Translations under genes and position numbers: made by a program
Notes under the pieces: generated by a model
What the model saw: only the letters and a program-made list of their open reading frames with translations
Told to the model about the DNA's origin: nothing
Database searches by the model: none
Assembly: GCA_015709495.1 (NCBI GenBank)
Contig: CP054189.1
Coordinates: forward strand, 2,170,001 to 2,234,000
From: Chthonomonadaceae bacterium
Lineage (GTDB): Bacteria; Armatimonadota; Fimbriimonadia; Fimbriimonadales; Fimbriimonadaceae
Direction of reading: 5' to 3'
Length of the DNA stretch: 64,000 bases
In this document: piece after piece, positions 43,774-64,000 of the stretch
Position numbering within the stretch: position 1 is the stretch's first letter
Layout: every line of letters begins with the position of its first letter

Positions 43774-43900
43774 GAAAGGCTTAGGCCGGGTGAAGAGAGC
43801 GGGGAGCACAACCTTGCCATCCCCAAAAAAAAAGTGAAGATCCGGGTGCCCCGGTCAGACTCGGAGTGTGGCCATCCCATGGGACAAGTCTACTTGCCAC

Positions 43901-43936
43901 GGGTGCCACCCCAAACTTGTCTTTGGGGTGCTCCGG
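43901..43936 (+). repeat. Palindromic repeat family A, single copy
   Basis: GGGTGCCACCCCAAACTTG followed by TCTTTGGGGTGCTCC; CACCCCAAA and TTTGGGGTG arms can pair. Same family as the tandem array at 46132 and the inverted copies at 46838-47272. Confidence 0.8.
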
Positions 43937-45592: not shown

Positions 45593-46065
45593 ATGAGATT
45601 GGCGCGCGAAAAGGGCTTCCGTTGCGTCCTGAAAGGAAGAGGCGGGATCGCGAAATCTGATTCGTTGGAGCGGCGAAGAGTCGACGGCTGGATGGTCTAT
45701 GGCCTCGTCACGACGACGCTGTTCTTGGCGGGGGTTCTCGTGCAGAAGGTACTTATGGAGCCAGGTCGCCAGGAGGGTATAGCCGCTTCCGAGCGGGTCC
45801 TCAGATTGGCCTGCCAACGAGACTTTGAGGGCATAGCCGCCTCTTCGGCTCCTGCAGTCGTTGAGTTCATGCAGCAGCGAGACGAGAAGTGGGGAAGGTG
45901 GTGAAATACAGCTTCGAGGACTCGCTCGTTCAGGTCGGCGGGTCTCCGGCGCAGGTACAGTGGCGGGTCTGGCGGGAGCGGAAGAACGTGCGCGAAACTT
46001 TCTACTGCATCAACGATCGGGTTGTGCAGGCGTTCGTTTCGTGGCCTGAGGCAGAGGAGAAGTAA
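45593..46065 (+). pseudogene. Small membrane-anchored protein, frame broken at 45890-45904
   Basis: Two frames join here. The first (45593-45904, 103 residues) has a basic start, one membrane helix (MVYGLVTTTLFLAGVLVQKV) and ends ...FMQQRDEKWGRW. The second (45901-46065, 54 residues from GTG) reads VKYSFEDSLVQV, then VQWRVWRERKNVRETFYCIN. One added G in the GGGG run at 45891-45894 would join them as DEKWGKVVKYSF, a smooth continuation. It may be a frameshifted gene, a sequencing error, or two genes with a GTGA overlap like others in this window. No family is recognised. Confidence 0.5.
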
Positions 46066-46131
46066 GGTGAAGCCGTCGACGGCGTGGCGAGGTTGAAGCA
46101 GGTCGCCGTCCCATGGGATTAGGCTATTTCC

Positions 46132-46395
46132 CACGGGTGCCACCCCAAACTCGCTTTGGGGTGCTCCGGGGCTGGCGGGTTGAAAGCGATTGGGTGGCTT
46201 TGCACGGGTGCCACCCCAAACTTGTTTCTGCGGTGCTCTGGGGCTGGGTTGAAAGCGATTGGGTGGCTTTGCACGGGTGACACCCCAAACTTGTTTTGGG
46301 GTGCTCTGGGGCTAGGGTTGAAAGCGATTGGTTGGCTTCCCACGGGTGCCACCCCAAACTTGTTTTTGGGGTGCTCCGGGGCCGGCGGGTGCAAG
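46132..46395 (+). repeat. Four tandem copies of a 69-71-bp repeat with family A palindrome
   Basis: CACGGGTG starts a unit at 46132, 46203, 46272 and 46341 (periods 71, 69, 69). Each unit is CACGGGTGCCACCCCAAACTTG, a loop, TTTGGGGTGCTCC or close, then a GC-rich linker including GGTTGAAAGCGATTGG and GGTGGCTTTG. Spacers and repeats are equally conserved, which excludes a CRISPR array. Confidence 0.88.
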
Positions 46396-46745
46396 GCACG
46401 AAGCAGGCTTCCCGCACTCAATAGCGGGAGGCATCGGGAGAGGTGTAGCCTCTTTGAAGCAGGAGAGCGAATCGGGGGCCTTTCCCGTAGGCGTCTCTCC
46501 TGCGGCTCCGACGACGGGATTCGGAGTCTCGGCCCAACAGGCCCAGGAAATCTGGCCGGGTGGCACGGGTTCCAGGCCTTCGGCCTTCGCTATGGGCTTG
46601 CGGCCCAGCAGGCATAGGGAACCGAACTCCTTCGTAAGGTGGGCGTCGGTGATCCGACAGGCCCAACGGGCCGAAGGGTTAGAGCGAAGGGCAACGCCCT
46701 GGTGGAATCCAGCCCCCAAGATGAATGCGGCCTGTAAGGTCGCGA

Positions 46746-46766
46746 CTCTCAACTCTCAACTCTCAA
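46746..46766 (+). repeat. Short tandem repeat (CTCTCAA)x3
   Basis: Three perfect copies of CTCTCAA in a row. Confidence 0.9.
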
Positions 46767-46837
46767 CTTCGCGACCCTGTGGCCGGGGCCGACCCCTAGA
46801 GCAGCCCCGAAACAAGCCCCGTTCCCACCGGCGGCCA

Positions 46838-46867
46838 GCACCCCAAAGCAAGTTTGGGGTGGCACCC
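46838..46867 (-). repeat. Family A palindrome, inverted copy 1
   Basis: GCACCCCAAAGCAAG then TTTGGGGTGGCACCC, the reverse complement of the forward family A unit. The arms CACCCCAAA and TTTGGGGTG pair perfectly. Confidence 0.85.
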
Positions 46868-46911
46868 AGATTGAGTCGCACGGAGCCCCGCTTCACTCTG
46901 CTCTTGACTTC

Positions 46912-46937
46912 CCGGTCTGCTCTGCGAGTCAGACCGG
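46912..46937. repeat. Palindromic repeat family B, copy 2
   Basis: CCGGTCTG ... CAGACCGG with centre CTCTGCGAGT, followed by GGCACCCGG. Inverted relative to 43748-43773. Confidence 0.8.
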
Positions 46938-47002
46938 GGCACCCGGCGACGGGACTCCCTAACCTCCCGGATGCAGGGTCACGCGAGGATGCGGGCGAGC
47001 AT

Positions 47003-47031
47003 CACCCCAAAGCAAGTTTGGGGTGGCACCC
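47003..47031 (-). repeat. Family A palindrome, inverted copy 2
   Basis: CACCCCAAAGCAAG then TTTGGGGTGGCACCC; identical core to the copies at 46838 and 47087. Confidence 0.85.
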
Positions 47032-47086
47032 AGATTGGATCGTACCGACCCCCGCTTCACTCGGCCTCAGGTTTACCCGGCGGCCA

Positions 47087-47115
47087 GCACCCCAAAGCAA
47101 GTTTGGGGTGGCACC
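47087..47115 (-). repeat. Family A palindrome, inverted copy 3
   Basis: GCACCCCAAAGCAAG then TTTGGGGTGGCACCC, 84 bases after copy 2, with the same downstream CAGATTG. Confidence 0.85.
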
Positions 47116-47159
47116 CAGATTGAGTGCGCGAAGCCCCGCTTCACTCGGCTTTAGACTTC

Positions 47160-47184
47160 CCGGTCTGCTTTGGGGTCAGACCGG
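47160..47184. repeat. Palindromic repeat family B, copy 3
   Basis: CCGGTCTG ... CAGACCGG with a changed centre (CTTTGGGGT), followed by GGCACCCGG as in copy 2. Confidence 0.8.
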
Positions 47185-47242
47185 GGCACCCGGCCGACCC
47201 CTAGAGCAGCCCCGAAACAAGCCCCGTTCCCACCTGCGGCCA

Positions 47243-47272
47243 GCACCCCAAACCGAGTTTGGGGTGGCACCC
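47243..47272 (-). repeat. Family A palindrome, inverted copy 4
   Basis: GCACCCCAAACCGAG then TTTGGGGTGGCACCC; the loop differs (CCGAG for GCAAG). It lies in the second copy of the larger duplication. Confidence 0.85.
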
Positions 47273-63837: not shown

Positions 63838-64000
63838 CTTGCCGTTGTTGGGTCGCCCTGGCGAAGGGAACGTAGCGGGTGGGTTCGCCAGGATAGGCTG
63901 ATGGGTCGTGCCGTTTGTCTCGGATGTATAGGCCCTTTCCCTCCCATAGCGGCGGGTGGTCCTCCTTGCGGCCCAATTTGGGTACCACCCCAAACTTGCT
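63838..64000 (+). other. Gene-free end of window with a family A repeat
   Basis: No supportable gene. GGGTACCACCCCAAACTTG at about 63980-63998 matches the forward family A unit, cut by the window edge. Confidence 0.6.

Follow-up and report, generated by a model that had tools for sequence, protein, structure and literature searches.

The repeat array and the cluster around it

The stretch of DNA that we analysed, 64,000 nucleotides in length (genome 2170001 to 2234000) and hereafter called the window, contains a tandem array at 46132 to 46382, which TRF describes with a period of 69, 3.6 copies, 90% matches, and a score of 389. The direct-repeat analysis gave start-to-start spacings of 71, 69, and 69, in agreement with the four units and the periods that a sequence-only reading of this DNA had given. 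The array also holds, as that reading had it, a palindrome accompanied by a conserved linker, since four palindromes and three linkers GGTTGAAAGCGATTGG are present. The palindrome consists of a 9-bp stem, CACCCCAAA/TTTGGGGTG, corresponding to the nine-bp hairpin described before, and of a loop of 5 to 6 nt, and it falls within the range of the short palindromes of REPs (20 to 40 nt, with a stem of 6 to 13 bp). The window contains eight matches to the pattern CACCCCAAA-N3-8-TTTGGGGTG, against none in 100 dinucleotide shuffles. The layout is that of a REP and is observed directly: a conserved, unpaired 5' tag, GGGTGCC, precedes a hairpin of 8 to 9 bp.

All four units lie on the plus strand. Unit 1 (46132 to 46202, 71 nt) contains the tag GGGTGCC, the hairpin at 46141 to 46163, and the linker. 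Unit 2 (46203 to 46271, 69 nt) has the tag, a degenerate hairpin whose 3' arm reads TTTCTGCGGTG, and the linker. In unit 3 (46272 to 46340, 69 nt), the tag is altered to GGGTGAC and is followed by an intact 9-bp hairpin (46281 to 46303) and the linker, and unit 4 (46341 to 46385) is partial, with the tag and a hairpin at 46350 to 46373 and without the linker. The base changes previously noticed, TTTCTGCGGTG in unit 2 and GGGTGACACC in unit 3, are thus both in the sequence. When whole single units were folded, they were weakly better or no better than shuffled sequences (z from -1.8 to 0.2), and unit 2, folded singly, was no better. The array adjoins an ORF on the plus strand (45593 to 46065) that carries a frameshift in this genome, while its reading frame is uninterrupted in a conspecific strain, G094; the gene preceding the repeats is thus indeed broken.

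A mosaic REP cluster of about 1.2 kb, which the sequence-only reading had not recognized beyond the array, extends from 46098 to about 47307 and has the array at its left end. It opens with an outer A flank and a tandem of four plus-strand A-type REPs, and a segment of about 450 bp then leads to four minus-strand B-type REPs. The outer flank of the A-type end (46098 to 46131, plus strand; consensus GGCGGGTGGCCATCCCATGG.ACAA.TCTACTTCC) is common to most A-type copies of the genome. The BLAST matches of dispersed copies begin at 46098, and the boundary of the A flank coincides with a strain breakpoint at genome copy 228777. The inter-REP segment, or cargo (46386 to 46836), was recognized by BLAST comparison; parts of it accompany the array at genome 311 kb and 2234 to 2236 kb, and RAYT coding similarity is absent from it. 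In the same segment, we could notice more GGCCTTCGGCC-type palindromes, which are repeated near genome 311 kb. The B-type REPs, all on the minus strand, are found at 46837 to 46867 (with the tag GGGTGCC on that strand), at 47003 to 47031 and 47086 to 47116, and at 47242 to 47272, from where outer-flank likeness to other copies reaches about 47307. Interleaved with them on the minus strand are two REPs of a second type, GGGTGCC-CCGGTCTGACTCGCAGAGCAGACCGG, belonging to the gene RAYT1 described below: the first (46911 to 46944) is of the type flanking RAYT1 at genome 470 kb, and the second (47158 to 47191) is a loop variant with CCCCAAA.

Elsewhere in the window, a solo A-type copy (43862 to 43936, plus strand) lies between two convergent ORFs, one purF-like and the other of 413 aa on the minus strand, and the start of another copy (63974 to 64000, plus strand; genome 2233980) belongs to a second composite cluster. 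The purF-like protein has its closest matches in MAGs labelled Armatimonadota (Fimbriimonadaceae, Chthonomonas, and similar labels). According to the ORF map, the array cluster is likewise located between convergent ORFs, and such gaps are a usual place of REPs.

Copies in the genome and in a second strain

The search for other genomic copies, which the sequence-only reading had called for, returned about 30. In particular, the single-contig 2.9-Mb genome contains 26 exact palindromes (about 30 including degenerate copies), and BLAST placed the repeat at 32 positions, so that it occurs in the multiple dispersed copies characteristic of REPs. The tag GGGTGCC is present in most copies. Their alignment distinguished two kinds, A and B, which have a common core, GGGTGCCACCCCAAA-CTYGY-TTTGGGGTG, and different outer flanks (GGCGGGTGGCCATCCCATGG...CTTCCCAC in A and GGCGGGTGGGGCTTCGTGCGACCCAATCT in B). 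Neighboring copies are arranged in nine head-to-tail and four outward-facing pairs, and in no inward-facing pair. In complete or partial form, the cluster occupies three sites: the composite occurs again at genome 2233973 to 2235971, where a 1303-bp insertion sequence splits it, and its array half occurs also at genome 311152 to 311702. The array at 311 kb stands directly after an RHS/YD-repeat-like reading frame, and the copies at genome 311698, 760111, and 2269619 adjoin RHS/YD-repeat-like coding DNA.

The regular spacing of palindromic units would also suit a degenerate CRISPR-like array or an integron attC-like array, a reading to which we assign practically no probability. Indeed, the linkers are conserved and unique spacers are absent, as had been argued against CRISPR from the beginning, the unit is also dispersed as solo copies and doublets, and gene cassettes are not separated by the units. 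Conserved linkers and dispersed copies refute both identities.

The exact palindrome was found in none of 60 relatives, and the 100-nt A end was present in 2 of the 85 genomes of the taxonomic family, both belonging to the same species (the source genome and G094); among these 85 genomes, the repeat family is confined to one species. The sequence-only reading had named, as fatal to its proposal, a unit occurring only here, with no other genomic copies and no conservation in relatives. That condition does not hold, as other copies do exist, although conservation is limited to the species.

The number of repeats in G094 is about equal to that in the source genome, and most copies are common to both strains; it follows that the repeat family is not newly spread. 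A variation in unit number was observed directly at the 311-kb array, which has three units in the source genome and five in G094. At the site of the window, G094 has four units, with an insertion sequence inside the fourth palindrome. We sought a clean empty site and found none, including for the G094 copies at 235 kb, and mobility is thus a property that we infer.

The 1303-bp insertion sequence has near-identical copies at genome 164783 to 166085, 752224 to 753526, 2234472 to 2235774, and 2488189 to 2489491. Its match in G094 is about 1059 bp long (2072656 to 2073714), one copy being that in the fourth palindrome of the window array, and, from the empty site at G094 75516 to 75524, the duplicated target would measure about 9 bp.

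The position of the cluster between ORFs pointing towards each other, and the occurrence of most copies in two strains, which indicates that copies persist, could be reconciled with an array maintained by the host as a small RNA, an mRNA 3'-end stabilizer, or a nucleoid or gyrase site, kept for regulation and not by a transposase. However, the promoter and terminator scan revealed neither promoter-like nor terminator-like sites at the hairpins, the Rfam search of the whole window returned no match, the unit number is not conserved, and the hairpin of unit 2 has a degenerate arm, so that we give this explanation a very small probability. The small-RNA role put forward in the sequence-only reading finds no support in the same scan and Rfam results, and no host role for the array is demonstrated here.

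RAYT genes and the repeats around them

RAYT1 (genome 470508 to 471029) scored 97.7 bits against the NCBIfam model of REP-associated tyrosine transposases, and it is flanked by REPs of the second type, which have the same tag as the array palindrome and a different stem; one lies upstream of the gene, and two, in inverted orientation, lie downstream of it. By using RAYT1 as the query, we detected RAYT2 (genome 2478683 to 2479273, minus strand), an intact gene for 197 aa located outside the window, whose product is 40% identical to RAYT1. The Pfam Y1_Tnp search of the genome had retrieved four genes, and RAYT2 was not among them, its score of 17.5 being lower than the gathering score of 23. RAYT2 presents what defines a RAYT: an alignment with ten homologues recovers the motifs HUH (MPEHAHLL), WQ, and Y (YMHWNP), in which the two H residues of HUH, the W, the Q, and the Y of YxxxNP are invariant, and the match to the NCBIfam model REP_Tyr_transpos reaches 80.8 bits, barely over the cutoff of 80. 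Furthermore, a profile of these homologues matched TnpA-REP in the PDB (4er8; E value, 1.5e-13), and the PDB search with RAYT1 alone (Phmmer) gave no match.

RAYT2 lies between outward-facing copies of the palindrome, one of B type at genome 2478538 (plus strand) and one of A type at genome 2479366 (minus strand). This linkage, which is directly observed, provides the RAYT/Y1 transposase that the sequence-only reading had proposed to look for and corresponds to a REPtron, that is, a RAYT gene flanked by an inverted pair of REPs from the family to which the array belongs. With about 30 copies and a RAYT gene set between outward-facing ones, the suggestion of a REP-like element proved well founded. 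In G094, the RAYT2 site is occupied by a different insert and an intact RAYT2 is absent from the strain; since G094 keeps the repeats, their linkage with RAYT2 is not obligate. The insert (G094 C1 2326044 to 2330650, 4.6 kb) carries an ORF of 716 aa, which we read from its sequence as a KAP-like P-loop NTPase, and a partner ORF, and it may be a defense island. At G094 C1 813875 to 814069, a remnant of the C-terminal part of a RAYT, adjoining the palindrome copies 814527/814561, is probably a decayed RAYT.

The 3' end of the RAYT2 gene is also embedded in short dispersed REP doublets, a capture that can be seen directly at genome 2463048/2463202 and at G094 1492228/1492382 and 2312619/2312772, where the two REPs, about 154 bp apart and with their tags outward, enclose the RAYT2 3'-end sequence. 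Because of this enclosed sequence, the doublets look like internal deletion derivatives. The capture of the rayt 3' end in inter-REP segments was reported earlier in four cases (PMC2817692).

A third match to the RAYT model (genome 2159604 to 2160689) has other repeats around the gene. The long N-terminal stretch of its product is made up of translated CGCACGCGTCCCGCGTGGC-like repeats, and the CGCACGCGTCCCGCGTGGC-like repeats around the gene may be its REPs.

The tag in the taxonomic family and the nature of the repeats

The tag was examined at every RAYT locus of the taxonomic family that had complete flanks, 33 after the removal of duplicates, left and right being assigned by genome orientation. 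The motif GGGTG[GC]C is biased outward (binomial P, 7e-5), with 23 outward against 7 inward among the left flanks and 20 against 6 among the right flanks. In a motif-free scan of the same loci, GGGTGGC was the most outward-biased 7-mer of all (32 versus 9) and GGGTGCC the fourth (18 versus 4); no outward bias was found for GTAG and CGTC at these 33 loci. Hairpins come after the family tags, and their stem sequence varies from locus to locus. Since the tag is common across the RAYT loci of the family while the stems differ, it is the tag that marks the clade, and the head of the array palindrome is thus the tag of this RAYT clade. A conserved unpaired tag at the foot of the hairpin, as expected of a REP, is therefore present both in most copies of the array family and at the RAYT loci of the taxonomic family.

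Published REP tags read GTAG, GTGG, or CGTC (PMC3733652, PMC6006769). The tags of most relatives read GTGG within GGGTGGC, and the array family reads GTGC and so stands outside the canonical GT[AG]G superfamily; GTGC departs from the published tags at the fourth base. The array repeat is a REP with a variant tag and not a GT[AG]G REP.

The fact that GGCGGGTGG opens both end types outside the core palindrome, together with the existence of minimal elements with both outer ends (genome 2239871 to 2239967), could recall MITE-like elements mobilized by a DDE transposase, in which the outer GGCGGGTGG would be a terminal inverted repeat and the RAYT a passenger. We judge this very unlikely: by eye, the flanks of the minimal copy do not feature an obvious target-site duplication, the outer motif is in itself a GGGTGG tag, and the repeats are tied to RAYTs both by the RAYT 3' end in the doublets and by the outward tag seen at RAYT loci throughout the family.

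Thus, we consider it highly probable that the palindrome is a REP, with RAYT2 as its most likely cognate enzyme, that RAYT2 or a predecessor spread the REPs, and that the array is a secondary amplification. Points against this explanation are the low number of copies, about 30, as REPs often exceed 100 copies, and, from the results above, the noncanonical tag, the RAYT2 scores close to or below the thresholds, the repeats kept by a strain with no intact RAYT2, the fruitless search for a clean empty site, and the weak folding of single units. RAYTs are HUH/Y1 transposases of IS200/IS605 ancestry, and the tag GGGTGCC with its short hairpin would be the likely single-strand recognition site of the RAYT; RAYT2, or a predecessor, would cleave and join REP hairpins on single-stranded DNA, spreading the REPs. 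In work on E. coli TnpA-REP, the enzyme recognizes the single strand in its folded form, and the tag guides cleavage (PMC8266576); it is by analogy with that system that we infer the same for the repeats considered here. The array may have originated from one REP and its linker, amplified secondarily at one end of the composite cluster; the difference in unit number between the two strains makes slippage or unequal recombination the most likely mode of its growth.

The system resembles the REPtrons of E. coli (yafM with Y and Z2), Stenotrophomonas, and Pseudomonas in its short hairpin with a conserved, unpaired 5' tag, in the dispersal of its copies, two of which flank a RAYT gene in inverted orientation, and in the presence of several RAYT/REP pairs per genome (PMC2817692, PMC6006769). 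Different from them, the tag is GGGTG[GC]C, with GTGC instead of GT[AG]G in the array family, the copies are about 30, and intact RAYT2 is absent in one of two conspecific strains. Like a BIME, the cluster is a mosaic with REPs of two RAYTs of one genome and with inter-REP segments, and the RAYT 3' end is captured in such segments (compare PMC2817692). However, a BIME has regular spacing and regularly alternating orientation, whereas here two same-oriented blocks, four REPs on the plus strand and then four on the minus strand, face each other; we regard it as a mosaic cluster and do not file it as a BIME. The doublets with outside tags recall the REPINs of Pseudomonas fluorescens SBW25, for which tandem REP arrays have also been described (PMC3116915), but the spacer is longer here and contains RAYT 3'-end sequence, and the copies are few. 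With IS200/IS605 elements, the system has in common the Y1 HUH transposase ancestry and the hairpins on both sides of the gene; different from those elements, NCBIfam places RAYT1 and RAYT2 above the cutoff in the RAYT model and not in IS200.

In the literature that we searched, no earlier report of RAYT/REP systems in Armatimonadota was found. The REP/RAYT kind is already known, and what appears to be new is the phylum to which these systems are extended, the shifted tag (GTGC versus GT[AG]G), and the unusual head-to-tail layout; the puzzling array of the window is accounted for as ordinary mobile-DNA debris. One could tentatively hypothesize, although we hold it to be rather doubtful, that the RAYTs of the Armatimonadota lineage form a clade guided by an extended tag, GGGTG[GC]C, in which C is allowed as the fourth base of GTRG, under a recognition rule different from that of the GTAG and CGTC superfamilies, and that their REPs preferentially amplify head-to-tail into tandem arrays varying by strain. 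The some 30 RAYT loci, with a common tag and different stems, offer a natural series for recognizing which part of the REP the enzyme reads, and the difference in unit number between strains provides a simple typing locus.
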